DNA from: Sphingobacteriia bacterium
GTDB taxonomy: Bacteria > Bacteroidota > Bacteroidia > Bacteroidales > UBA7960
NCBI GenBank assembly: GCA_011390785.1
Contig: JAABRR010000015.1
Coordinates: 1-51,149, forward strand
Direction of reading: 5' to 3'
Length of the DNA stretch: 51,149 bases
Shown in pieces: positions 8,111 through 49,270 of this stretch; the stretch's first letter is position 1, and each line of letters opens with the position of its first letter. Made by a program: the position numbers and the translations under genes. The notes beneath the pieces were generated by a model that saw only the letters and a list, made by a program, of their open reading frames with translations, did not search any database and was not told where the DNA came from.

Positions 8111-8950
8111 ATGATTGATTTTATTATCTATAACGGAAATTTACTATCTGTTGAACAATTTGGATTACCGGTTCAAAACAGGTCCTTTCGATATGGCGAT
8201 GGCGTTTTTGAAAGTATTCGCTGTAACAATGGGGTTTCATTGTGGATAGAGAAACACTGTGAGAGACTCGTTAGTTCTGCTAAAACCTTAAAAATTGATT
8301 TTCCGGACAATCTTAATCCGGAAAATCTTAAGGTTTTAATTCGTCAATTGTTAAAAGCCAACAATCATTTGTTGGGAGCAAGGGTAAGACTATCGTTGTT
8401 TCGCGAAGATGGTGGTCTTTACAGGCCTAAGGGGAATAATGGATATTTTTTGATTGAATCGTCTGCTTTGGAGCATAATAACTACCTGCTTAATAACATT
8501 GGGCTGAAAACGGGTTTTTATAATGAGCTTACCAAATCTGTAAACAGAATTAGTTTTCTTAAAAGTTCCAGTTCCCTTCTATATGTAATGGCCGGTTTGT
8601 ATGGTGTTGAAAAGGGCTGGGATGAAGTTATCATTCTTAACGAAAACGGCTATGTGGCAGAGGCCGGAAATTCGAATCTTTTTGTGGTTGAAAAGGATCA
8701 ATTGTTAACCCCGGCACTTGATCAGGGCTGTGTTGATGGCGTTATGAGACGGGTTATCCTTGATTTGGCCGTAAAAGCTAACATTAAGGTTTCAGAATGT
8801 GCTTTGCTTCCGAAAGATCTGCTTCATGCTGATGAGGTATTCCTGACAAATGCCATTAGAGGAATTCAATGGGTTAAAGGGATTCAGAATAAAAGGTATT
8901 ACCATAAAATGGCGTCTGATTTAATGCTTGAAATCCAGAAGATTACTTAA
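8111..8950 (+). CDS. Class IV PLP aminotransferase (BCAT / aminodeoxychorismate lyase type)
   Basis: The 279-residue protein is a fold-type IV PLP enzyme. It has the N-terminal FRYGDGVFESIR block (26-37), a probable PLP-binding lysine K151 in FLKSSSSLLYVMAG, and AEAGNSNLFVV, which corresponds to the phosphate-binding region of branched-chain aminotransferases and 4-amino-4-deoxychorismate lyase. LTNAIRGI near the C terminus is also typical. Length fits both BCAT and PabC; the short size and divergent substrate loops favour a PabC-like or D-amino-acid-type member, but this is not decisive. No other folate or branched-chain gene is nearby. It probably shares a transcript with the rhomboid gene in front of it. 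Confidence 0.85.
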   Translation: MIDFIIYNGNLLSVEQFGLPVQNRSFRYGDGVFESIRCNNGVSLWIEKHCERLVSSAKTLKIDFPDNLNPENLKVLIRQLLKANNHLLGARVRLSLFREDGGLYRPKGNNGYFLIESSALEHNNYLLNNIGLKTGFYNELTKSVNRISFLKSSSSLLYVMAGLYGVEKGWDEVIILNENGYVAEAGNSNLFVVEKDQLLTPALDQGCVDGVMRRVILDLAVKANIKVSECALLPKDLLHADEVFLTNAIRGIQWVKGIQNKRYYHKMASDLMLEIQKIT

Positions 8951-10690: not shown

Positions 10691-12634
10691 ATGGGATTAA
10701 TAAAATTTGATAAAAATCAACTTATAAATCTTGAATATTCCCTCGGCAAAGAAATGCTAAGAAGCAACAGAGCAGGATCTTTTTCCTGTACTACCATAAT
10801 TGGCTGCAATACCCGAAAATATCACGGTTTGTTGGTTTGTCCGCAGCCGAACCTAGACAATACGATTCATGTTCTTCTGTCAAAAATTGATGAAACAATT
10901 ATTCAACGAGATGCTGAGTTTAACATAGGTATCAGTAAATATCCTAACGCCTATTTTCCTAAAGGACATAAATATGTAAGAGATTTTTCAGCGGATATTA
11001 TTCCTAAACTTACCTACAGGGTAGGAGGGGTTGTTCTAACAAAAGAAACTCTTTTTGTTACTGAAGAACAAAAGGTTATGATTAGATACACGCTGGTAGA
11101 AGCTCAGTCTCCCACCACGATAAGGGTAAAACCATTTCTGGCCTTCAGAAATATTCATGCCCTAAGCAAAAAGAATATGTATCTTGATACAAAATACCAG
11201 TCTGTTCCCAATGGTATAAAAACAAGAATGTACGATGGTTATTCTGACCTTTATCTGCAATTTTCGAAATCTAAAGTTGAGTATGTGCATTTCCCCGACT
11301 GGTACGACAATATAGAGTATTTTCACGAAGAGCAACGTGGTTATGAGTTCAGGGAAGATCTTTATGTTCCGGGGTTTTTTGAATTCCCAATAAAAAAAGG
11401 CGAAAGTATAATATTTTATGCAGGAACTGACCAGGTTAATCCAACATTGATAAGCCGGATGTTTCAGAAGGAGTTGAAAGCACGCACTCCACGAAACAGT
11501 TTTGAAAATAGTCTGAGAAACTCAGCGGAGCAATTCTTTTATAAACATGCCGAAGGAACTGATATTGTAGCCGGTTATCCATGGCATGACCGCAATGGCA
11601 GATTTACCTTTATCTCGTTACCTGGCTTAGCACATTCCAACTACTCTGAAGAGGCATGTAGTGAAGTTTTTTCTACCATGATTGACCAAATGCAGGGGCC
11701 TTTATTTCCTGAAACCGGAAGAGGTGCTACCGCCAATTATTTATCTGCCGATACATCACTATGGTTTATATGGGCATTGCAACAATGTTGTTGCAAAAAA
11801 ACAGAAACTGCATCAACCTGGAAAAACTACGGTGCAATTATTACCAATATTCTTGAATCTTTTGCAAAAGGGACCGGTTTTCTGAAAATGCGTAATAATA
11901 ATTTGCTTTATATTGACTCTGAATATCCATCCCTCACCTGGATGAATTCGGTTGTTAATGGATTGCCTGTTACACCAAGGTTTGGTTATGTGGTTGAAGT
12001 AAACGCTTTATGGTATAACGCTATTGTTTTTGCTCTAAAAGCTGCATCCAAAGCCAAAGATTCTAAATTTGTAGAAACATGGCAACCCATTGCCAATGGA
12101 ATTAAAGAGAACTTCTCAAATATTTTCTGGAGACAGGAAATTGGTTGTTTAGCCGATTATGTTACCGATGATTTTACCGAGTTATCTATAAGGCCTAATC
12201 AAATAATTTCAATATCAGTTCCTTATAGTCCGCTATCGGAAGAATATGCTCGCAAAGTTGTTGATATGGTTAATAAAAGGCTGGTTACAAAGCGCGGTCT
12301 TCGAACATTATCTCCCGAAAACCGATTCTATAAAGGAAGGTATCTGGGCAATGAAAAAGAGCGTAATCTGGCTTTACATCAGGGTACCGTTCATCCCTGG
12401 TTATTCGGGCATTTTGCCGAAGCATATCTTAAGATTTTTCAAAAACAGGGAGTTAAGTATATTCAGGAGCTGTACAGAGGTTTTCAGGATGATATGATTG
12501 AAGATGGTATAGGCACCATATCAGAAATTTATGAAGGTGATCCTCCTCATTCAGGCCGTGGTGCCATTTCGTTTGCAGCCAATGTTGCTGAATTAATAAG
12601 GGTAAAGTCGATGATCGATCAATATGAAGGTTAA
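10691..12634 (+). CDS. Glycogen debranching enzyme (amylo-alpha-1,6-glucosidase, GH133 type)
   Basis: The 647-residue protein has the bacterial GDE layout: an N-terminal beta-sandwich domain (GDE_N) with SFSCTTIIGCNTRKYHGLLV at about residues 32-51, then an alpha/alpha-barrel GDE_C domain. In the barrel, FPETGRGATANYLSADTSLW (about 337-356) supplies an acidic cluster and EGDPPHSGRGAISFAANVAE near the C terminus is the family's closing motif. The enzyme removes alpha-1,6-linked glucose stubs from limit dextrins, which lets phosphorylase continue. There is no signal peptide, so it acts in the cytoplasm on stored glycogen. It is followed after 42 bases by a GT4 glycosyltransferase and then by GH57 and synthase-phosphorylase genes, all consistent with one glycogen metabolism unit. 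Confidence 0.9.
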   Translation: MGLIKFDKNQLINLEYSLGKEMLRSNRAGSFSCTTIIGCNTRKYHGLLVCPQPNLDNTIHVLLSKIDETIIQRDAEFNIGISKYPNAYFPKGHKYVRDFSADIIPKLTYRVGGVVLTKETLFVTEEQKVMIRYTLVEAQSPTTIRVKPFLAFRNIHALSKKNMYLDTKYQSVPNGIKTRMYDGYSDLYLQFSKSKVEYVHFPDWYDNIEYFHEEQRGYEFREDLYVPGFFEFPIKKGESIIFYAGTDQVNPTLISRMFQKELKARTPRNSFENSLRNSAEQFFYKHAEGTDIVAGYPWHDRNGRFTFISLPGLAHSNYSEEACSEVFSTMIDQMQGPLFPETGRGATANYLSADTSLWFIWALQQCCCKKTETASTWKNYGAIITNILESFAKGTGFLKMRNNNLLYIDSEYPSLTWMNSVVNGLPVTPRFGYVVEVNALWYNAIVFALKAASKAKDSKFVETWQPIANGIKENFSNIFWRQEIGCLADYVTDDFTELSIRPNQIISISVPYSPLSEEYARKVVDMVNKRLVTKRGLRTLSPENRFYKGRYLGNEKERNLALHQGTVHPWLFGHFAEAYLKIFQKQGVKYIQELYRGFQDDMIEDGIGTISEIYEGDPPHSGRGAISFAANVAELIRVKSMIDQYEG

Positions 12635-15911: not shown

Positions 15912-18900
15912 ATGACAGAAAGTTTAAAGAAACCTGACTATTTGTTCGAAGTTAGCTGGGAAGTATGTAACAAAATAGGAGGTATTCATACCGTTATAAC
16001 CACCAAAGCAATGTTATTGTCTAAAAGCTTAAACGACAATTATATATGCATTGGTCCGGATGTTTGGAAAGAAACTCATGGAAATCCAGAATTTATTGAA
16101 GATAAATACTTATATAGATCCTGGAGAAAGCAGGCACAAAAAAATGGCCTGCATTTCCGTATCGGCCGTTGGAATATTCCTGGTGAGCCTATTGTTATCC
16201 TTGTTGATTTTACGCCTCTATTTGCTGAAAAAGACACCATTTTTACCGGGTTATGGGAAAAATTTGGTCTCAACTCTTTAAATGGTCAATGGGACTATAC
16301 CGAACCTGCTCTGTTTGGGTATGCTGCCGGTAAGGTTATTGAAAGCTTCTATGATTATCATCTTTCTTCAAGTGATTCTTTTTTGGCCCATTTTCATGAG
16401 TGGATGACAGGTGCAGGCATTATGTATCTTAAAGATCACGTGCCCCAGGCAGGTACCATTTTTACAACTCATGCTACCATTTTGGGCAGAACAATAGCAG
16501 GGGTAGGTCAAAATCTTTACTCAGACCTTGGAACTTTCAATCCAGATGATAAGGCAAGAGAGCTGGATATTGTATCTAAGCATAGCATGGAAAAGAATGC
16601 CGCAGCACATGCGGATATTTTTACTTCTATTAGCAAATTATCAGCCAGGGAATGCCATAAACTTGTTGAAAAAGAAGTTGATGTAATTACTTTAAATGGA
16701 TTTAATGATGCTTTTGTTCCTAAGGAAGAAGAATTTATTCAAAAAAGAAAAATTGCCCGAAGCAGGCTTCTGCAGGTGGCATCAGGATTGTTGAATGAAC
16801 AAATGCCCGACGATAGTTTGCTACTTATTAATAGTGGTAGGTACGAATTTAAAAATAAAGGTATTGATGTTTTTATCGAAGCACTTGCTAAATTAAATAA
16901 ACAGAAGCAAGATAAAACTTTTATTGCCTTCATTATGATTCCTGCTAATCAAACAGGGGTAAGGCCGGAACTAATTTCCCGTATGAATTCGCAGAAATAC
17001 ACACAATCTGTAACAGGAGAATATACTACACACAAACTGGTTGATCCAGCCGGAGATTTAATACTTAACAAAATAAAAGAATTAGGGTTAACTAATTCCC
17101 CCGATGATAAAGTGAAGGTAGTTTTTGTACCTTCTTATTTAAATGGTAGAGATGGTGCCGTTAATCTTGATTATTACGAAGCTCTCATCGGTATGGATTT
17201 AAGTGTTTTCCCATCTTACTATGAGCCCTGGGGATACACGCCGGTAGAAAGCTTGTCTTTCCACGTACCGTCAATTACCAGTTCTCTTGCTGGTTTTGGT
17301 GTTTGGATAAAAGAACAATTTCCCGAACAGAAACATGGAATTTCTGTTATTGACAGAGATGATCAAAATTATGCTGACGTGAGCGATTCCATTTTTTCTG
17401 TTTTCAAAGATTTATTTATTGATAACCCATTAGGCGAATTTAAAGTTGATAACAGTGGTTACAATAGCTATTCTTATGAGGGCTTGTCTGAATTCAGAAA
17501 CACTGCTGCTAAAATTGCTGAAACGGTATTATGGGAAAAACTCATAGGGAATTATTACCAGGCCTATTCAAGCGCTTTAGATAAAGTTTTGGGACGTGAA
17601 CATTTATACCAATCCAAGAAACAATCTGTTAAACCCCAGGAGCTTCTAAAAACCAAAGTTTCTAAACCAAAATGGAAAAAAGTTCTTATCGAAATCAGTG
17701 TTCCTGATGAATTAAAAGATTTACAGAGATTATCAAAAAACCTTTGGTGGACATGGAACTATGAAGCTATTGATCTTTTCAAAAGAATTGATTCCAATTT
17801 ATGGGCAAAGGCAGAACAAAGTCCACCACGTTTGCTCGATAGTTTAACATTAGAGCACTACAACGGCTTAATAGCCAATAAAGATTTCATGACTGAATAC
17901 AGGCATGTAGTAGAAAAGTTTGATACCTACATGAAGGCCGGTGAGAAGAAAACCAGCGATTCTATTGCTTATTTTAGTATGGAATATGGCTTACACACTT
18001 CAGTTAAGATCTATTCTGGCGGACTGGGCGTGTTGGCAGGTGACTACCTTAAACAAGCCAGTGATAACAATATTGATCTTGTGGGTATTGGTTTGTTATA
18101 TCGTTATGGTTACTTTTCTCAAAATCTTGCATTAAATGGGGAGCAATTAGCCAACTATACAGCTCATAACTTTACCTATATGTCGGCACAACCAGTTCGA
18201 AATGAAATGGGCGAATGGTTAAAGATTATTATTGCTTTTCCCGGACGTAATCTTTATGCAAAGGTTTGGAAAATTGATGTGGGCCGTATTCCGTTGTATT
18301 TACTAGATACAGATATTCCGGAAAATATATCTGTAGATAAAGTAGTTACCCATCAGCTTTATGGTGGAGATTGGGAAAACCGGTTTAAGCAGGAATTTTT
18401 ATTGGGGATTGGTGGTATTCGTTTGCTGGAAGCTCTAGGGAAAGATCCAAAGGTTTTCCATCTTAACGAAGGCCATGCAGCATTTGCCGGTTTGGAAAGA
18501 CTCAGACGATTTGTGCAGGAAGAAAAGCTTAGTTTCGAAGAAGCTCTTGAAGCAGTAAGATCAAGCAGTTTGTTTACAACACACACTCCAGTGCCAGCCG
18601 GGCACGACTTCTTTAGCGAAGACATGCTACGTACCTACATGCCACATTATGCTGATCGTTTAGGTGTTAGTTGGGAAACATTTATGTCATTAGGTAAAAT
18701 GCATCCTGAACTGACAGATGACCGCTACTCAATGAGTGTATTGGCAACCAAACTTTCAAGCGAAGTAAATGGGGTTAGTAAAATCCATGGTAGTGTGTCG
18801 CGTGATATGTTTAAGGATTTATATCCAGGTTATTTTACCAATGAAGTGCATATTGGTCACGTAACCAATGGTGTGCATTATGGCACATGGTGTGCTCCTG

Positions 18901-20201
18901 AATGGCAGAAGTTTTACTTAGAAACTTTTGGTGACGATTTTCTCAATGATGTATCTAATCCAGTACAATGGGAAAAAATTTACAATGTACCCGATGCTAA
19001 AATATGGGAAATGCGTCAAATACAGCGTAAAAAGCTGATGGATTATATCAAGAAACGCTTACTATCCAATCTTGCGCGCAGACAGGAAACACCTAAAAAA
19101 GTTTATCAGATACTGGAAGGCCTGAACGAAAAAACCCTTACTATTGGTTTTGCCCGCAGGTTTGCTACATATAAACGAGCTCATTTGCTTTTTAATGATC
19201 TTGAAAAACTGGCTCGTATTGTTAATAATCCTGATATGCCTGTTCAGTTTCTTTATGCTGGCAAAGCCCATCCGGCCGATAAAGCAGGTCAGGAACTTAT
19301 TAAAAACATAGTTGAAATTTCGAAGAAAAAGGAATTTCGTGGTAAGGTTATTTTTCTTGAAGATTATGATATGGAGTTAGGTGAAGCTCTGGTAAAAGGT
19401 GTTGATATTTGGCTCAATACACCTACCAGGCCACTGGAAGCTTCTGGTACCTCAGGCCAGAAGGCATCAATAAATGGTGTTCTTAATTTCAGCGTTTTAG
19501 ATGGATGGTGGGCAGAAGGATACACCCCTGAAGCCGGCTGGGCAATTAAAGAGGAGAAAACTTATGAAAATCAGGCTTATCAGGACGAACTCGATGCTGA
19601 AATTATCTATAATACTTTTGAAAATGAAATTGCTCCTATCTTCTACGATAGAAATGCAGATGGAGTTCCTGAAGAATGGGTAAGATGGATAAAAAATAAC
19701 ATAGCCCGAATTGCGCCACACTATACCAATAAGCGCATGATTGATGATTATTTCAAACTTTTTTACAACAAACTTTTCAAGAATGCTGATACCATTAGAG
19801 CCAATTCTTACCAAATGGCCAAAGAACTTGCCCGATGGAAAAAGAACATGATTCTCAGATGGGAAGATATTGAGCTTAGTTCATTAGATGTTATTGATAC
19901 TTCTGATAACTCATTACTGCTCGGTGACAATTTTACAGCAAAACTGGTTGTAGATATAAACGATTTTGATGAAGAAGATGTAGGGATGGAAATTGTTTTT
20001 ATTCAAAAAACTTTTGAAGGCGAAGAGGTCGTTATTTCTGTTTATGAAATGGAACAGGTTAGCCGTGAAAAGGAACTCGTTACTTTTAAATGTGAAGTGC
20101 CGACCAGAAGTGTGGGTATTTACAACTATGCGTTTCGATTGTTCCCGAAACATCCATTGTTACCTCATCGGCAAGACCTTAATCTTGTGAAATGGTTCTG
20201 A
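15912..20201 (+). CDS. Glycogen synthase (GT3) - alpha-glucan phosphorylase (GT35) fusion
   Basis: The 1429-residue chain joins opposite activities. Residues about 1-565 are a GT3 synthase of the eukaryotic type: VSWEVCNKIGGIHTVI near the start and the donor-binding E438-x7-E446 motif in YEPWGYTPVESL. After a linker of about 30 residues, the DUF3417 segment (LSKNLWWTWN, about 608-617) opens a phosphorylase of the alpha-glucan family, with SMEYGLHTSVKIYSGGLG near 688 and the PLP lysine K1184 in EASGTSGQKASING. The usual residue before that lysine is methionine; here it is glutamine. A beta-rich C-terminal extension of about 110 residues follows. The synthase half should add glucose from UDP-glucose and the phosphorylase half release glucose-1-phosphate. 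Such fusions occur in Bacteroidota. It is the last glycogen gene of the cluster. Confidence 0.93.
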   Translation: MTESLKKPDYLFEVSWEVCNKIGGIHTVITTKAMLLSKSLNDNYICIGPDVWKETHGNPEFIEDKYLYRSWRKQAQKNGLHFRIGRWNIPGEPIVILVDFTPLFAEKDTIFTGLWEKFGLNSLNGQWDYTEPALFGYAAGKVIESFYDYHLSSSDSFLAHFHEWMTGAGIMYLKDHVPQAGTIFTTHATILGRTIAGVGQNLYSDLGTFNPDDKARELDIVSKHSMEKNAAAHADIFTSISKLSARECHKLVEKEVDVITLNGFNDAFVPKEEEFIQKRKIARSRLLQVASGLLNEQMPDDSLLLINSGRYEFKNKGIDVFIEALAKLNKQKQDKTFIAFIMIPANQTGVRPELISRMNSQKYTQSVTGEYTTHKLVDPAGDLILNKIKELGLTNSPDDKVKVVFVPSYLNGRDGAVNLDYYEALIGMDLSVFPSYYEPWGYTPVESLSFHVPSITSSLAGFGVWIKEQFPEQKHGISVIDRDDQNYADVSDSIFSVFKDLFIDNPLGEFKVDNSGYNSYSYEGLSEFRNTAAKIAETVLWEKLIGNYYQAYSSALDKVLGREHLYQSKKQSVKPQELLKTKVSKPKWKKVLIEISVPDELKDLQRLSKNLWWTWNYEAIDLFKRIDSNLWAKAEQSPPRLLDSLTLEHYNGLIANKDFMTEYRHVVEKFDTYMKAGEKKTSDSIAYFSMEYGLHTSVKIYSGGLGVLAGDYLKQASDNNIDLVGIGLLYRYGYFSQNLALNGEQLANYTAHNFTYMSAQPVRNEMGEWLKIIIAFPGRNLYAKVWKIDVGRIPLYLLDTDIPENISVDKVVTHQLYGGDWENRFKQEFLLGIGGIRLLEALGKDPKVFHLNEGHAAFAGLERLRRFVQEEKLSFEEALEAVRSSSLFTTHTPVPAGHDFFSEDMLRTYMPHYADRLGVSWETFMSLGKMHPELTDDRYSMSVLATKLSSEVNGVSKIHGSVSRDMFKDLYPGYFTNEVHIGHVTNGVHYGTWCAPEWQKFYLETFGDDFLNDVSNPVQWEKIYNVPDAKIWEMRQIQRKKLMDYIKKRLLSNLARRQETPKKVYQILEGLNEKTLTIGFARRFATYKRAHLLFNDLEKLARIVNNPDMPVQFLYAGKAHPADKAGQELIKNIVEISKKKEFRGKVIFLEDYDMELGEALVKGVDIWLNTPTRPLEASGTSGQKASINGVLNFSVLDGWWAEGYTPEAGWAIKEEKTYENQAYQDELDAEIIYNTFENEIAPIFYDRNADGVPEEWVRWIKNNIARIAPHYTNKRMIDDYFKLFYNKLFKNADTIRANSYQMAKELARWKKNMILRWEDIELSSLDVIDTSDNSLLLGDNFTAKLVVDINDFDEEDVGMEIVFIQKTFEGEEVVISVYEMEQVSREKELVTFKCEVPTRSVGIYNYAFRLFPKHPLLPHRQDLNLVKWF

Positions 20202-30578: not shown

Positions 30579-32762
30579 TTACTGAATAATTACTTTATGA
30601 GTTCGAGAGCCTTTTTCCCATGATAATTTTACGAAAAATACCCCGGTTTCTTCATCTGAAAGATTAACCATAAACGGTTGATCGTATTGAGTAACCATTA
30701 CAGAATGTTGCTGAACAATTTGTCCTGTTATATTATAGATGTCAATGGTTACATTTCCGGCTGTGGGAGTCATCACCACATTAAATTGCTTTTTTGAAGG
30801 GTTTGGGAATACATCAGACAGAAATTTCTCTTCCCAACGGGGAATGTTCGTAACGTTCTGTTGGAAAACAGCTTTTGCTGAAATATCTTCCAGAATAATT
30901 AAATCAACTTCGGATTGGGTTAATTCGTTTTCATTAATAATCCATTTTTCGAAAAGCCATCCGGGAGCCGGTTCTGCTGATATTGTTACTTCCTTATTTT
31001 CATCTAACCGGTAAATGCCTGACACAGGATAAGTTGTGCCCAGCCCTTGTGACGTTACCGTTAATGCGAAGGTAGGTTTTGTAGAAACTGTAATAAAATT
31101 GGCGCGAATAATTTCCATACCGTCAATGGCAAGGGAGATGGTTTTATTTCCAGATGTTGAATAGCTTACTTGCACTTCATCAAGTCCGTTATAGCTGGCA
31201 GGAGTAGCTCCTTCATCAAAATTCCAGAGCACATTGTTAAAACTGCCGTTCTCTAAGCATCCGGTATAAGAGAATGTTACAGGCTGGCCAATCTCTACAA
31301 TTGTTTCGTTGGCTGTAAAATTAACAGCATCTCCATTCACATCAACGCTCCATGGGCCATTAGCTCCGGGAAAAGGTTTTGTAATGGTTTTATTTTCATT
31401 GGATGCGCTGATAAAATACTCCAGGGTTGTATTACATGTTTGGGGCGGAATTTCAGCAAAATAATTATCGCCATTGGCAATCATGGCAATCTCTGTAAAA
31501 TCTGCACTGCCAGAAGATCGGTAAAAAACGCACGCAGATGTTATTCCCAGGTTGTTCTTAATGATAGCGTCAACAGGATAAGAATCTTTATACCCGTCAA
31601 TAGACCGAAATGGTGCATGAGAAATGAAAATAGGATCGTTAGCAGCAATTTCTTTCGATATGCAATGTATTGCCCCGCTTGCTCCTATAACATTTTCCAT
31701 ATTAATACCTATAATTTCATAACCCGGCATGGCTGCTTCATAAATAGCAAGAGCTTCCTGGTTTAAGGCACTGTTGTTATAGGTTGGTACAAGTATAAGA
31801 TCATTCAAAATAATAGAATTGGTAAAGGTACGGTAATGGCTGTAAGGTGGATAACCGCCGGAATTATTAGGAACCATAGGTACTCTGACAATTTTATAAT
31901 CACGATCATAACACGTGGGGTAGTTATCCAATACATACTCTATATTATTCTCAATAAATGGTCCGTCTGAAACTCCGTCAGGGAAATTGCCTATCAGAAT
32001 GGTTTCTTCATCAAGAAGTTTCATATGCATATCAATATGGCTGATATTATCGTAGGGTAACTCATCCATTTTTATGTAGCGATCAATTCCCATAAAATTG
32101 TAAACGATTTCATCGATTTGGGAAATTGAAAGGTTTGAGTTTTCGTTAACTATCAGATTAGATGAAAAAGCTGTTCCATGTCCATCTGTCATAAAATTAC
32201 CCCCGGTTGCTACCAGGCGATTAGGATTGGTGGTTATCTGATAAATTGGGACATTTAGAAAACCGGCCATATTAAAGGGAATTTGATTATCCTGTGGACG
32301 GGGGCGGTTATAAACCCAATCAATAAAGGCCAGTTCATCTGTTTCATTGAGGTAAATACTTTGAGGGCCAAAATCACGAACCCAGACCGAATTAAAATTA
32401 AAGTCAACAAAGGTTATATTTTCCAATGAAATGTTGCCTTGTGCAAGATATGTCTGAACATAGATAGCATCGTTTGTAACAATGTAAACGGGTACGCGCT
32501 GGCTGGCATATCTTATGATTTCTCTCAATTCTGCCTGGTAAGATGTCCAGGTAATTATTATTCCTCCGGCTTCTTCAAATTCTGCAGGAGTGCGTGGGAT
32601 AGATGCAGGGGGTTGTATATTTTTATATCCGTATTCAAGGTTTTGAAGGTAGTCTTCAAAGATAATTTTTTCTTTTTCGGTTAGTCCTTTGGGCAGATTT
32701 TGCTGTGTAAAAGCAGTTAATGTAATAAAGAGCAAAGAAAAAGCTATAAAGTGTCTTGGCAT
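30579..32762 (-). CDS. Secreted peptidylarginine-deiminase-like enzyme with T9SS sorting domain
   Basis: The 727-residue protein belongs to the PAD_porph/agmatine-deiminase family (guanidino-modifying superfamily). A signal peptide (about 1-19) is followed by the catalytic domain to about residue 385, with D130 in WVRDFGP, H242-I-D244 in SHIDMHMK, N315 in TFTNS and the nucleophile C367 in GASGAIHC. These match the order and nearly the spacing of Porphyromonas PPAD (D130, H236, D238, N297, C351). R153-P-R155 lies where PPAD has the two arginines that hold a C-terminal arginine. A PKD-like segment, a bacterial-repeat segment and a type A T9SS C-terminal domain (PNPSKKQFNV to the end) follow. 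The enzyme should convert arginine to citrulline outside the cell; peptide versus agmatine specificity is inferred. Confidence 0.85.
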   Translation of the reverse strand: MPRHFIAFSLLFITLTAFTQQNLPKGLTEKEKIIFEDYLQNLEYGYKNIQPPASIPRTPAEFEEAGGIIITWTSYQAELREIIRYASQRVPVYIVTNDAIYVQTYLAQGNISLENITFVDFNFNSVWVRDFGPQSIYLNETDELAFIDWVYNRPRPQDNQIPFNMAGFLNVPIYQITTNPNRLVATGGNFMTDGHGTAFSSNLIVNENSNLSISQIDEIVYNFMGIDRYIKMDELPYDNISHIDMHMKLLDEETILIGNFPDGVSDGPFIENNIEYVLDNYPTCYDRDYKIVRVPMVPNNSGGYPPYSHYRTFTNSIILNDLILVPTYNNSALNQEALAIYEAAMPGYEIIGINMENVIGASGAIHCISKEIAANDPIFISHAPFRSIDGYKDSYPVDAIIKNNLGITSACVFYRSSGSADFTEIAMIANGDNYFAEIPPQTCNTTLEYFISASNENKTITKPFPGANGPWSVDVNGDAVNFTANETIVEIGQPVTFSYTGCLENGSFNNVLWNFDEGATPASYNGLDEVQVSYSTSGNKTISLAIDGMEIIRANFITVSTKPTFALTVTSQGLGTTYPVSGIYRLDENKEVTISAEPAPGWLFEKWIINENELTQSEVDLIILEDISAKAVFQQNVTNIPRWEEKFLSDVFPNPSKKQFNVVMTPTAGNVTIDIYNITGQIVQQHSVMVTQYDQPFMVNLSDEETGVFFVKLSWEKGSRTHKVIIQ

Positions 32763-45734: not shown

Positions 45735-47042
45735 TTAAAAGTATGCTTTGGCTCCCAGTGCATTCAGGCCATCAATGGGTCTGCAATCTGGAGAAAGGAT
45801 ACTTCCGTGGGTGTTCTGTGCTATAGAGCCGCACCCACCGCCACAAACCAGTTGTAAGTTGCAGCTTTTGCACTGTTCTATGTGCAGTACATCTCTTTGT
45901 TCCCAGATTTTTATTTTTTCATCATCGAGCATTACATCCGGATAAAAAGTGCCTAGTTTTTCTCCTGGCTTTCCTACGGTTGCTGTGCATGAATATACGC
46001 TTCCGGTAAAATCCATGGCCCATTCGCTTTTACAGGCTGGACAAGAATCAAATAAGGCATTGGGTAGGTTTCCGTTTTCCGACAGGTATTTCATTACAGA
46101 AAATGCAGGCTTGTGAAATTCCAGTACCTGTGGATGTTTTTTAATGATCTTGAGCAAATGCTGGTACAGAGAAAGACGATCAAATAATTTTGATTGTCCG
46201 TTCTGGCAGTAGTGCAGTTCGTAATTCCGGCCAATCTGGGTTTTAAACAAAGGATTTTTTGTCCAGCCTTTTTCAATAGCCATATCTGCCAGATCAGGCA
46301 AATTATCAATGTTCTCCTTGTCAACCACCATGCGCAGGTTTACCGAAATATTTTTTGCCAAACAGGCATCGATATTTTTTACGATCACATCAAAAGTAGG
46401 ATTGTTGTTCTTTAATCTGCGGCGGCGGTTATGGATATCTTCGGTACCGTCGATGGTAATTTGAATTTCTCTTACAAAAGAGCTGTCGAAAAGGGGCAGA
46501 TACTCGTGAAGCAAATAGCCGTTGGTAACAATAGCAATATCAATATTCTCTTTTTTGGTGGCTTCTATAAAGTATTCGATGCTTTTTTTGTGCTTGGGTG
46601 CAGCCAATAGGGGTTCACCTCCAAAAAGGGTAATATATTTTTTCCTGTCAGCAAATTTATTTTTTATAAAAGAAAAAAATGCGTCAATAATCTCGGGAGA
46701 GAGACTCATTTGCTGTGAAGGATATTCGCTTTGGTAGCAGTAGGAGCAGGTAAAGTTGCAACTATAGGTTGGTACAAAAAATAACTGTACTTCTTCCTTT
46801 TCTCTTTCTTCCAAAAATTCAATATATTTTAGTCTGTAGGAAAGGTCTTCTTCAGCCGGAATGCAAACATATCCTTTTTGAATAAAATCAAAAGGATAAT
46901 CACCGGTGTGATTATCCTTTAAAATTTTGAGTTCTTCATCAGAAAGGATGTCTGCATTTCCTGATAGAATATTTACAATTAAGTGCTTTTTTCCTTCTTC
47001 TAATGTTGAGACAATGTTGTGTTGTGAAGGTTTTAAATTCAT
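45735..47042 (-). CDS. Radical SAM/SPASM peptide-maturase-like enzyme
   Basis: The 435-residue enzyme has the radical SAM cluster C95-x3-C99-x2-C102 (SCNFTCSYCY) and the SAM-binding FGGEP. Its C terminus has a complete SPASM pattern: C-x9-G-x4-C (CKSEWAMDFTGSVYSC), C-x2-C-x5-C-x3-C (CKSCNLQLVCGGGC) and a last cysteine in SPDC, enough for two auxiliary iron-sulfur clusters. SPASM enzymes modify ribosomal peptides or proteins (sactipeptide, PQQ, anSME types). The first 90 residues before the barrel (ILSDEELKILKDN, FIQKGYVCIPAEEDL) resemble the leader-contacting N-terminal region of peptide maturases. The 34-residue Cys peptide gene lies 40 bases upstream and an ArsM-like methyltransferase before that, so the enzyme is the likely modifier of that peptide. 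Chemistry is inferred. Confidence 0.9.
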   Translation of the reverse strand: MNLKPSQHNIVSTLEEGKKHLIVNILSGNADILSDEELKILKDNHTGDYPFDFIQKGYVCIPAEEDLSYRLKYIEFLEEREKEEVQLFFVPTYSCNFTCSYCYQSEYPSQQMSLSPEIIDAFFSFIKNKFADRKKYITLFGGEPLLAAPKHKKSIEYFIEATKKENIDIAIVTNGYLLHEYLPLFDSSFVREIQITIDGTEDIHNRRRRLKNNNPTFDVIVKNIDACLAKNISVNLRMVVDKENIDNLPDLADMAIEKGWTKNPLFKTQIGRNYELHYCQNGQSKLFDRLSLYQHLLKIIKKHPQVLEFHKPAFSVMKYLSENGNLPNALFDSCPACKSEWAMDFTGSVYSCTATVGKPGEKLGTFYPDVMLDDEKIKIWEQRDVLHIEQCKSCNLQLVCGGGCGSIAQNTHGSILSPDCRPIDGLNALGAKAYF

Positions 47043-47082
47043 GTGATGATTGTAAATGAAAATAGGAAATGCAATGAGAATA

Positions 47083-47187
47083 CTAATCGTGACAACCTAC
47101 CTGATTATTAGATAATTTTGCACAACATTGTGCTTGTTTTTTTTCTGATACCTGATTTCTTGTTTCTTTTTTTACGAGAGTTTTCAT
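47083..47187 (-). CDS. 34-residue Cys-containing peptide, putative RiPP precursor
   Basis: A short frame with ATG at 47185-47187 and TAG at 47083-47085 encodes 34 residues. The first 20 are polar and basic (MKTLVKKETRNQVSEKKQ, leader-like), and the last 14 are CCAKLSNNQVGCHD, with cysteines at 21, 22 and 32. It lies between an ArsM-like methyltransferase gene (87 bases upstream) and a radical SAM/SPASM gene (40 bases downstream) on the same strand, the classic position of a ribosomally made, post-translationally modified peptide. Leader and core halves, Cys near the C terminus and the adjacent maturase all fit. It is below the size limit of most gene callers. A chance frame cannot be excluded from one sequence; conservation next to the same enzymes would settle it. 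Confidence 0.65.
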   Translation of the reverse strand: MKTLVKKETRNQVSEKKQAQCCAKLSNNQVGCHD

Positions 47188-47274
47188 AAATTTTTCTATA
47201 ATTATAAGTGAATAAGTTTCTTTTTAAAACGTGACGCAAGTTACGAAAAAATATGCGCCTTTAATGTTAAAATA

Positions 47275-47910
47275 TCAGTGTTTATAGCCTTTTATGGTAA
47301 AACTACACACCTGGATTTCCCCTTTTTCGTATGGGGTTGATTCTTCAATAAATTCAACACCAGGAAAACCTGCATTGTGTATATTTTCAAGATATTTTTC
47401 TTTGGTTTCCGAACCAGCCCAACATTCGGCAACTGCTTCAGGGTCGTTTCTGTAGATATCGGGTACTGTTTCGAGCGAATAAATATCGCTTACCACAAAG
47501 TAACCACCTGGCTTTAGAATCCGGTAAATCTCTTTCCATACAGAAGCCTGATCGAGACTATGATTGATAGTGCAGTTTGAAAGAACAAGATCCAGGCTTT
47601 CATCTTTCAACTGAATGTTTTCCAACTCACTTTTGATAAATGCGGTGTTGGTCTGGTTGATTTTTCGTGCATTTTCCCTTGCTGTTTCCATCATTGCTTC
47701 AGACACATCTATGCCATAGGCAAACCCTGTTTCTGTGGCCATTGTAGCCATTTTTAATACGTCAAATCCTTTACCCGATCCCAGATCGGCACATCGAAAG
47801 CCCGGTTTTATCTCTGCGTAGTTTATAGCTCCTCCACACGACAGGCAGCATGGCTGTCCCGATAATTCGTCGTATCGAAGAGATATGGCTTTGGTAAATG
47901 GTTCACTCAT
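47275..47910 (-). CDS. ArsM-like SAM methyltransferase
   Basis: The 211-residue enzyme (ATG 47910, 32 bases after a promoter box; an upstream ATG at 47961 lies before that box) has motif I ADLGSGKGFDVL (41-52), GIDVSEAMMETAREN and VLSNCTINHSLD, followed by ILKPGGYFVVSDI and AECWAGS. This set is characteristic of arsenite methyltransferases (ArsM), whose metalloid-binding cysteines fall in the N-terminal segment, the SNC motif and the C-(V/W)-AG motif; here they are C21/C22/C25 in QPCCLSCGG, C113 and C163. ArsM converts As(III) to methylated arsenic. No arsR, arsB or arsC is near. Being first in an operon with a Cys peptide and a radical SAM enzyme, it might instead methylate the peptide or a bound metalloid. 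Confidence 0.8.
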   Translation of the reverse strand: MSEPFTKAISLRYDELSGQPCCLSCGGAINYAEIKPGFRCADLGSGKGFDVLKMATMATETGFAYGIDVSEAMMETARENARKINQTNTAFIKSELENIQLKDESLDLVLSNCTINHSLDQASVWKEIYRILKPGGYFVVSDIYSLETVPDIYRNDPEAVAECWAGSETKEKYLENIHNAGFPGVEFIEESTPYEKGEIQVCSFTIKGYKH

Positions 47911-47941
47911 GTTATACTTAGTTATGTTTATATTATAGGTG

Positions 47942-47949
47942 CAAAGGTA
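47942..47949 (-). promoter_or_regulatory. -7 promoter element (TACCTTTG) of the ArsM-peptide-radical SAM operon
   Basis: TACCTTTG on the - strand fits TAnnTTTG and lies 31 bases before the methyltransferase start, giving a leader of about 25 bases. It is the only good box for the three genes and places the true start at 47910. Confidence 0.55.
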
Positions 47950-48126
47950 TGGAATTATCATCTGCCGGGGAAATGTTTGTTGATTTTAACACCGTATCCA
48001 TCTGATTTTGGAGTGTTGTTAAAAAATAACAATTGACACTATTGGTTAAACTTTAAAATTAAGCGCTTGTTTGATAATTACTTAAGCACGTTAATAATGG
48101 TTTTATTCTGTTTAAATTGACGTAAA

Positions 48127-48642
48127 ATGAATAAAAAAATGATTAGTAAAAAATTTGTCAGTTTTGTTTTCTACATGGCTTTTGGGCTGCTTTCGGTTAC
48201 TTATGTAAGTGCCGGTGAACCTAAAAAAATACCCATGTATACATTTAGTGAATTTGAGCATTGGCTTACCAAAGATACTGATTCTGTTTATGTAATAAAT
48301 TTTTGGGCAACCTGGTGTGCACCATGTGTAAAAGAAATACCCGATTTTGAAAAGTTTAATGCCCAATACAAAGATCAAAATATAAAGGTACTATTTGTAA
48401 GTCTTGATTTTCCAAATCAAATTGAAAGCAGGGTAGTTCCCTTTATTGAAAGAATGAACATGCAGGCAGAAGTTATTGTGCTTAACGAACCTAATGCCAA
48501 CAAATGGATTCCGGTGGTAAATGATGACTGGAGTGGTGCCATTCCTGCCACGGTAATCTATGGACGTGGATTTTACGCATTTTTTGAAGAGGAATTAACC
48601 TTCCAGGATTTGGAAGAAACTATATTACCATTAATTCAATAA
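48127..48642 (+). CDS. TlpA-like periplasmic thioredoxin
   Basis: The 171-residue protein has an export signal (about 1-29) and a thioredoxin fold with the redox pair C64-A-P-C67 in NFWATWCAPCVKEIP and the cis-proline region SGAIPATVIYG. WCAPC with this spacing is the TlpA/ResA pattern, whose members reduce disulfides in the periplasm, for example in cytochrome c maturation. It is followed after 28 bases by another thioredoxin-fold gene, probably in one operon, and is divergent from the Cys-peptide operon, 216 bases away. Whether the two units are functionally linked through thiol chemistry is only a possibility. Confidence 0.88.
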   Translation: MNKKMISKKFVSFVFYMAFGLLSVTYVSAGEPKKIPMYTFSEFEHWLTKDTDSVYVINFWATWCAPCVKEIPDFEKFNAQYKDQNIKVLFVSLDFPNQIESRVVPFIERMNMQAEVIVLNEPNANKWIPVVNDDWSGAIPATVIYGRGFYAFFEEELTFQDLEETILPLIQ

Positions 48643-48670
48643 TATTTTACTAACCCAAAACCAATTATTT

Positions 48671-49270
48671 ATGAAAAAGCTATTTGCATTTTTAAGTACC
48701 GTTTTTTTTATATCCACTTCTTTTGCCCAGGGATATAATGTGGGCGATGTTGCTGATGATTTTCGCCTTCTCAATGTTGACGGCAAATATGTATCAATGG
48801 CAGATTATCCTGATGCCAAAGGATTTGTAGTGATTTTTTCATGCAACCACTGTCCCTACGTTGTGGCTTATGAAGACCGTATGATTGAACTACACAATGA
48901 ATTTGCTCCCAAAGGATTTCCCGTAATTGCTATCAATGCCAATGATTCGGTGGTTCAGCCGCAGGATTCCTATACGAATATGAAAAAAAGGGCTAATGAG
49001 AAGAACTTCCCGTTTCCTTACCTTTTGGATGCAGACCAAACGGTGTATCCCAAATATGGTGCTACACGAACTCCACACATTTTCCTTCTTAAAAAAGATG
49101 GCCAGGATTTAAGGGTGGCTTATATAGGGGCTATAGATGATAATTATCAGGATGCATCAAAAGTGGAAGCGAGATATCTCGCTGATGCCATTATCGCCGT
49201 TTCCAATGGCCAGAAACCCAACCCTGAAACCACCAGGGCTATTGGTTGTAGTATTAAGAAAAAGAGATAA
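48671..49270 (+). CDS. Redoxin/AhpC-TSA-like exported protein
   Basis: The 199-residue protein begins with a signal peptide ending in FISTSFAQG. The thioredoxin-fold domain has VIFSCNHCPYVVAYEDR with C58-N-H-C61, a pattern found in the AhpC/TSA-like 'thioredoxin family' group rather than in classical peroxiredoxins, and ATRTPHIFLLKKDG as the cis-proline strand. Residues INANDSVVQPQDSYTNMK match the same group. It is probably an exported thiol oxidoreductase working with the TlpA-like protein encoded just before it. A terminator follows 38 bases after the stop. Confidence 0.85.
   Translation: MKKLFAFLSTVFFISTSFAQGYNVGDVADDFRLLNVDGKYVSMADYPDAKGFVVIFSCNHCPYVVAYEDRMIELHNEFAPKGFPVIAINANDSVVQPQDSYTNMKKRANEKNFPFPYLLDADQTVYPKYGATRTPHIFLLKKDGQDLRVAYIGAIDDNYQDASKVEARYLADAIIAVSNGQKPNPETTRAIGCSIKKKR

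Follow-up and report, generated by a model that had tools for sequence, protein, structure and literature searches.

What might a radical S-adenosylmethionine (SAM) enzyme make when its gene lies next to those of a tiny cysteine-containing peptide and an arsenite methyltransferase-like protein? The question is raised by a locus on the minus strand of contig JAABRR010000015.1 (assembly GCA_011390785.1) from a Sphingobacteriia bacterium of the order Bacteroidales; the 51,149-nucleotide stretch analyzed here is referred to as the window. A preliminary description of the window had proposed a modified-peptide system consisting of a promoter box, an ArsM-like methyltransferase (MT), a 34-residue peptide and a radical SAM/SPASM enzyme (rSAM), all of which are present on that strand (Table 1). 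Comparison with other genomes strengthens the proposal, as the genes prove to be inherited together and the peptide to be conserved, and amends it, since the set was incomplete: a thioredoxin–thioredoxin reductase (Trx–TrxR) fusion joins it as a fourth member. Judged from sequence, the system is best read as producing a cofactor-like ribosomally synthesized and post-translationally modified peptide (RiPP) with a thiol or metalloid redox function.

Co-inheritance of the cassette and a Trx–TrxR fusion

The survey covered 295 genomes of the order and 395 of the phylum, 685 of them distinct. Full rSAM genes are found in 33 of the 295 order genomes, with one additional fragment at a contig end (G263), and in five genomes of the phylum set beyond the window's own, for a total of 39 of the 685. 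The MT ortholog is recovered at 179 bits or more in 33 order genomes, all others listed scoring 130 bits or less, and these are the same 33 that carry the full rSAM gene. Strong peptide matches number 34 in the order and fall in those 33 genomes and in one more, G037, while all five rSAM genomes outside the order possess the MT, the peptide and the fusion. G263 was counted for rSAM and fusion and is not judgeable for MT or peptide; two weak peptide matches (G239 and G248; E 1e-3, 13 positions) were excluded. A scan of contigs for rSAM relatives, which finds close relatives only, returned ten contigs (68–75% rSAM identity) that all carry the peptide, nine of them with a full MT; in the tenth (L033), the contig end cuts the MT, leaving its last 31 residues visible. 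An eleventh match (L042) proved to be another protein. In the 47 related loci used for locus comparisons (rSAM identity of at least 50%), the peptide and rSAM genes always share a strand, and a full-size MT (205–217 residues) lies on that same strand in 46. The preliminary description had staked its proposal on the homologues occurring together elsewhere and on the peptide frame being conserved, and both expectations hold. Chance co-location of the genes is rejected by their co-inheritance in order and phylum genomes.

The fourth gene emerged from the clustering of neighbouring genes, in which a gene of ~422 codons stands beside rSAM in 31 of the 47 loci. Its product is a thioredoxin with a CPPC motif fused to an NADPH thioredoxin reductase (PF00085 and PF07992). 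Counted at E <= 1e-100, the fusion occurs in 33 of the 295 order genomes and 6 of the 395 phylum genomes (38 distinct), all rSAM-positive; in the phylum set, the six genomes with an rSAM of at least 52% identity, the window's own included, are exactly the six with the fusion. Once a shortened copy in G100 is counted, all 39 rSAM-positive genomes carry it, and none of the 646 rSAM-negative genomes does at that cut-off. In the window's own genome, the best plain reductase scores 243 bits compared with 598 for the fusion. In six genomes (the window's, G032, G146, G169, G241 and G262), the fusion is encoded on a different contig from the cassette, and no other pathway gene was recognised on these contigs except a degenerate ArsM-like one in G262; in G006, the fusion is cut by a contig end. 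Because the fusion is co-inherited even where it is encoded on another contig, its link to the cassette appears to be functional and not only positional. It tracks the rSAM gene in ten mixed families (f3, f6, f13, f19, f21, f25, f37, f65, f94 and f96), each of which holds positive and negative genomes, so the co-inheritance does not reflect one shared ancestry. By these comparisons, the fusion is an equally faithful member of the set.

The ArsM-like gene of G262 (L110:7956-8585), just 5' of the unlinked fusion, encodes a 209-residue methyltransferase-domain protein that has a CC pair near its N-terminus and resembles a degenerate ArsM by eye. Far rSAM relatives (28–32% identity; seven loci, in G259, G345, G675, G455, G522 and G619) were rejected as members and excluded from all counts, as their fetched stretches contain no peptide, MT or fusion. 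Three rSAM relatives of 28–30% identity (L043 in G259, L092 and L093) are each followed by a different small, cysteine-containing open reading frame (ORF) of 50–90 residues, possibly other undescribed peptide systems; the distant rSAM gene of G259 has an in-frame TGA.

The precursor-like peptide

The peptide, which the preliminary description had read as 34 residues with cysteines at positions 21, 22 and 32, has exactly these features, and its frame is conserved in relatives. An alignment of 48 rows (the window, 42 further order or contig loci, and five from outside the order) has M1, A19, C21, C22, A23, K24, G31, C32, H33 and D34 as invariant positions. A 16-residue core, AQCCAKLSNNQVGCHD in the window and A[QL]CCAKx[ST]xxxxGCHD followed by a stop in general, is conserved over 28 families and present in 49 of 49 peptides, namely the 48 aligned and the orphan of G037; a fiftieth copy, in G685, also matches the pattern. 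At the DNA level, the 49 cores are 49 distinct sequences, and every synonymous codon is used at the nine invariant core residues. The sequence begins with an MK[ST]L[IV]KK-like stretch and continues through a variable, lysine-rich linker, for a total length of 30 to 38 residues. Each genome that carries the peptide, the window's included, has one copy, and no NCBIfam or Pfam model matches it. The peptide is thus a genuine, strongly conserved gene, in which leader-like and core-like parts make up a conserved small precursor adjoining a SPASM maturase.

The G037 orphan (L122, on contig C3 of that genome, about 8299-8394) lies directly 3' of an unrelated MT, and its other neighbours include a peroxiredoxin, a Fur-family regulator and DsrE/Fe-S genes. 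Relatives of this unrelated MT also occur within the stretches around the cassette in L061, L089 and L091. Since its family mate G685 has the whole system, the G037 peptide is best read as a remnant left after system loss, with use without an rSAM as the other possibility.

The radical SAM/SPASM enzyme

The complete SPASM cysteine pattern previously noted in rSAM proves to be invariant across relatives. The CX3CX2C motif (C95/C99/C102) and the seven SPASM cysteines, C334, C352 (GX4C), C391-X2-C394-X5-C400-X3-C404 and C420, are retained in 43 aligned sequences, C420 in the 42 of 42 that have a residue there, and C279, an additional cysteine within an H-x-C-Q stretch, never varies in the same alignment. 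The protein matches PF04055 with 82.8 bits. Its nearest NCBIfam relatives are maturases of cysteine-rich peptides, but every score falls well short of the curated cut-off: the highest is 157.6 of 600 bits, then come 146.6 of 525, 133.4 of 340 and 133 of 600, and among the best 25 of 77 families no named SPASM equivalog (CefB, TIGR04463, PapB, Clo7bot, ScfB and others) is reached.

The AlphaFold model has a mean predicted local distance difference test (pLDDT) score of 91.3, and the top three Foldseek chains are CteB, followed by TigE, anSME and SuiB. The model is thus closest to the thioether-forming maturase CteB, as far as a predicted fold can indicate. A RiPP recognition element (RRE) consists of three strands followed by helices, and the modelled N-terminus, with three strands and then helices, is RRE-like. 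In the rSAM tree, the gene of G454, a genome outside the order, is placed among order members (fork support of 89–94, under the usual mark), which suggests acquisition by transfer.

The ArsM-type methyltransferase

The MT scores 170.7 bits against the arsenite methyltransferase model NF008823, below the curated cut-off of 263. Its AlphaFold model (mean pLDDT 93.2) retrieves ArsM or human AS3MT for the first 13 PDB chains in Foldseek, with TM-scores on the query of 0.74–0.82. Cysteines at CmArsM positions 72, 174 and 224 are the rule for ArsM according to PMC5552862. In an alignment that includes ten canonical ArsM proteins of the same order, C25, C113 and C163 of the MT fall on these positions and are kept in 42 of 42 aligned MTs, which bears out the three cysteine sites assigned in the preliminary description. 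Compared with those ten proteins, the MT has motifs of its own (CCLSCG, SNCxxNH and ECWAG) and lacks a ~45-residue cysteine-rich N-terminal segment and ~20 residues near the C-terminus. ArsM enzymes require thiol reductants such as thioredoxin for turnover, and the Trx–TrxR fusion could therefore serve the MT, the peptide or both.

Organization and transcription of the locus

The order on the minus strand is box, MT, peptide and rSAM. The longest MT ORF spans 47961-47275, and an inner ATG at 47910 gives a protein starting MSEPFTK. As relatives begin at this position and the box TACCTTTG lies downstream of the ATG at 47961, the real start is most likely the inner one, and the longer ORF is unlikely. 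The box fits TAnnTTTG, which we take to be the Bacteroidota -7 promoter consensus. In the window and in each of the nine close relatives whose MT start is readable, it lies between -39 and -44 relative to that start. Of the 45 relatives, 23 have a TAnnTTTG in the 120 nt 5' of the MT and 22 have none, whereas 7% of random 120-mers contain one; a copy 5' of the peptide gene is present in only six of 47 loci. This position, upstream of the MT and rarely upstream of the peptide, fits one transcript without demonstrating it, and from sequence the three genes are likely transcribed together. Peptide stop and rSAM start are separated by -8 to 201 nt in all but one of the 47 loci; in the exception, L063, the distance is 1072 nt and another ORF intervenes.

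Table 1. Positions of the cassette features within the window.
Feature	Coordinates	Strand	Basis
Promoter -7 box (putative), TACCTTTG	47942..47949	-	Sequence; same box in close relatives
MT, short ArsM-type SAM methyltransferase, 211 aa	47275..47910	-	ORF, fold, cysteine alignment
Peptide, precursor-like, 34 aa, K-rich N-terminal part and conserved C-terminal core	47083..47187	-	Alignment, single copy
rSAM, radical SAM/SPASM peptide-maturase-like, 435 aa, RRE-like N-terminal region	45735..47042	-	Pfam, NCBIfam, Foldseek, Cys pattern, model

Genomic neighbourhood

Ten neighbour families recur in at least five of the 47 loci, rarer neighbours not all being annotated. They include Trx (18 loci), DUF6132 (14), DUF302 (10), DUF1847 (8) and Crp/Fnr-like genes (7), and the remainder are the fusion, DUF456, DUF6452, DUF6048 and an IS1595-type zinc ribbon. 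No exporter or protease is recognisable among the ten, nor is acr3, arsC or arsB; an ArsR-family regulator is found in two loci. The cassette of G685 is accompanied by four further Trx genes, a ferredoxin, a DUF1847-like protein, a YgaP-like membrane protein and a rhodanese. With redox genes recurring and no export or protease gene recognisable in the ten families, the neighbourhood speaks for an intracellular thiol/redox role, and it implicates thiol/sulfur redox no less than arsenic. The window's genome has a separate run of ars genes on contig C110 (ArsR-family, ArsC-like LMWPc, ArsM and ACR3-like SBF), by which we reject an ordinary detoxifying ArsM as the main role of the MT; given this run and the ten families, ordinary arsenic detoxification is an unlikely main role for the system.

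Two groups of genes beside the cassette were rejected as parts of it. The downstream DUF6452/DUF6048 (eight of 47 loci each), HD, Usp and ligase genes are shared only with the window's clade and family. A divergent pair adjoining the MT (48127-49270), a TlpA-like thioredoxin and an AhpC/TSA gene, is not shared with close relatives, nine of ten of which have DUF456 there instead, while the tenth (L033) is cut at this point. Elsewhere in the window, a 1429-residue ORF (15912-20201) encodes both a glycogen synthase and a glycogen phosphorylase domain in a single frame and is preceded by a debranching enzyme (10691-12634), and 30579-32762 encodes a Porphyromonas-type peptidyl-arginine deiminase with a Por secretion-system C-terminal sorting domain.

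Relation to known systems

Both rSAM RiPPs and ArsM are known kinds. With the CteB/SCIFF-type, PapB, CefB (NF038107) and TIGR04463 maturases of cysteine-rich RiPPs (ranthipeptide/sactipeptide type), the present system shares the rSAM fold, the SPASM cysteines, the RRE-like N-terminus and a small cysteine-containing peptide alongside; it differs in scoring far below their equivalog cut-offs, among the families listed, and in a peptide that none of the family models describes. To our knowledge, none of these systems has a co-inherited ArsM-type MT or Trx–TrxR fusion. Only the modelled CteB-like fold of rSAM speaks for the sactipeptide/ranthipeptide thioether class. With ArsM/AS3MT (NF008823; PDB 4FS8, 5EVJ and 8XT7), the MT shares the Rossmann methyltransferase fold and the three cysteine equivalents.

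PQQ and mycofactocin, both peptide-derived redox cofactors, likewise combine a precursor of near-invariant core with a SPASM rSAM and a partner oxidoreductase. Their precursors are unlike the peptide described here, the partner here is Trx–TrxR, and no Pqq or Mft family is among the ten recurring neighbours. Mycofactocin is described as an rSAM product in PMC9062424. ArsL/ArsM (arsinothricin) and ArsS/ArsM (arsenosugar) have in common with our system an rSAM enzyme working with ArsM; according to PMC8552651, ArsL likely has a single Fe-S cluster, whereas a SPASM maturase is present here. Those pairs operate without a peptide precursor, and arsenic resistance genes do not recur around the cassette. 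A Thermodesulfovibrionia metagenome-assembled genome encodes an 804-residue protein with PqqD, radical SAM, SPASM and ArsM-type methyltransferase domains (L042:4581-6995), which scores 249.8 of the 263 bits for NF008823 and is an independent link of the rSAM-peptide and ArsM chemistries. Full-text searches of open-access PMC listed no paper that presents, in its title or the opening of its abstract, the combination of a RiPP-like precursor, SPASM rSAM, ArsM-type MT and dedicated Trx–TrxR fusion, and the four-part system looks like new peptide-based redox or metalloid chemistry.

Proposed mechanism and competing explanations

What the comparisons establish directly are the genes and how conserved they are, the inheritance of all four together, and the folds and active-site residues predicted for them. 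We propose that they form a four-part RiPP-type module for the synthesis and recycling of a small thiol peptide inside the cell, and we put the probability of this reading at roughly 0.55. In this scheme, rSAM would recognise the conserved MK[ST]L[IV]KK-like N-terminal part of the 30–38-residue precursor and modify the 16-residue core, most likely by cross-linking one of the three cysteines through a thioether or comparable bond, as suggested by its relatedness to CteB. The MT, with its three-thiol arsenite site kept, may then methylate a thiophilic atom on the peptide, either a bound trivalent metalloid or a cysteine or persulfide sulfur. The NADPH-dependent Trx–TrxR fusion, whose reducing role we infer from co-inheritance, would keep the cysteines of the peptide or the MT reduced and supply electrons. 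By analogy with PQQ or mycofactocin, a redox/metal cofactor or a thiol carrier would describe the product better than a secreted antibiotic, since the core is nearly invariant, the gene is single-copy and no exporter or protease recurs.

Several observations weigh against this proposal. G037, a genome 99% complete, has a perfect peptide in the absence of an MT ortholog and of the fusion, and its best rSAM match (24%, E 7e-5) is no real relative. A Trx gene separates the MT from the peptide in 9 of 47 loci, and two other genes do so in L045 and L047. The fusion adjoins the cassette in 31 of the 47 loci and not in all, its G100 copy, beside the cassette, is missing about 100 residues by deletion, and negative genomes might hold more divergent fusions that miss the E 1e-100 cut-off. 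The distances of rSAM, MT and fusion correlate (r 0.63–0.74, 30 loci), as shared species history would also produce. The MTs of L046 and L057 lack the CC pair, and the superpositions have a root-mean-square deviation of mostly about 8 Å for the MT on ArsM and near 8 Å for the rSAM model on CteB.

The nature of the thiophilic atom separates two rival versions of roughly equal weight, each of them of low probability. If the system handles metalloids, the three peptide cysteines would bind As(III) (or antimony, bismuth or selenium), the MT would methylate it on the peptide, rSAM would add a second group or a cross-link and Trx–TrxR would re-reduce it. This possibility gains from the cysteine sites retained in the MT and the invariant cysteines of the peptide, from the domain fusion in the unrelated lineage of L042, and from the ArsR-family regulator, which in L059 and L064 lies 5' of the MT on the same strand. 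A second, canonical ArsM occurs in at least 13 of the 33 positive order genomes versus at least 45 of the 262 others, counts that are lower bounds because such matches lie near the E 1e-30 threshold; by the same count, none was detected in 20 of the 33, which weighs against metalloids, as do the separate ars run and the recurrent neighbours without acr3, arsC or arsB. In favour of metalloids, PMC8552651, which also cites ArsS/ArsM, describes for ArsL/ArsM a sequential action of rSAM and ArsM on one arsenic atom. If the mature peptide is instead a sulfane-sulfur carrier that carries or reduces persulfide or polysulfide, Trx–TrxR would be its reductase and the MT would S-methylate or protect it. 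Here the rhodanese, YgaP-like, Trx and ferredoxin genes of G685 are joined by Trx, Fer4 and, by eye, rhodanese-like genes in L074, by a Pyr_redox_2 protein (sulfide:quinone reductase-like by eye) in L058 and L089, and by the DsrE and Fe-S genes beside the G037 orphan. However, such sulfur-related neighbours are scattered, each in few of the 47 loci, Trx genes are common in Bacteroidota, and we know of no ArsM-type site that methylates persulfides. A bolder and rather doubtful extension is that the peptide scaffolds a thiophile-based cofactor, in which rSAM and MT share as substrate a single metalloid or persulfide atom, bound through CC...C, that the dedicated Trx–TrxR turns over.

It is improbable that the peptide stays unmodified, as a small thiol/metal-binding protein or as a leader ORF with a regulatory role, with rSAM acting elsewhere. 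G037 does retain the peptide in the absence of a real rSAM relative, but 33 of the 34 strong peptide matches in the order fall in rSAM genomes, the rSAM model has an RRE-like N-terminus, and the 1072-nt gap with an intervening ORF in L063 is not expected of a leader. Sactipeptide and ranthipeptide clusters have a SPASM maturase beside a small cysteine peptide, and a secreted RiPP antibiotic or signal would share this layout; such a product is very unlikely for a core that is nearly invariant across families, encoded by one gene copy per genome and accompanied by no recognisable transporter or protease among the recurrent neighbours.

Implications

Few peptide-derived cofactors are known to us, and we know of no precedent for an ArsM-type site as a RiPP tailoring enzyme. 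A RiPP-like core that is near-constant over 28 families and tied to a dedicated reductase bears the hallmark of a cofactor or carrier, not of a weapon. The system also offers an entry to what many SPASM enzymes with tiny orphan cysteine peptides make. If the scaffold version is true, a ribosomal peptide would carry a C-As, C-Se or alkylated-persulfide centre for ordinary metabolism and not for detoxification.

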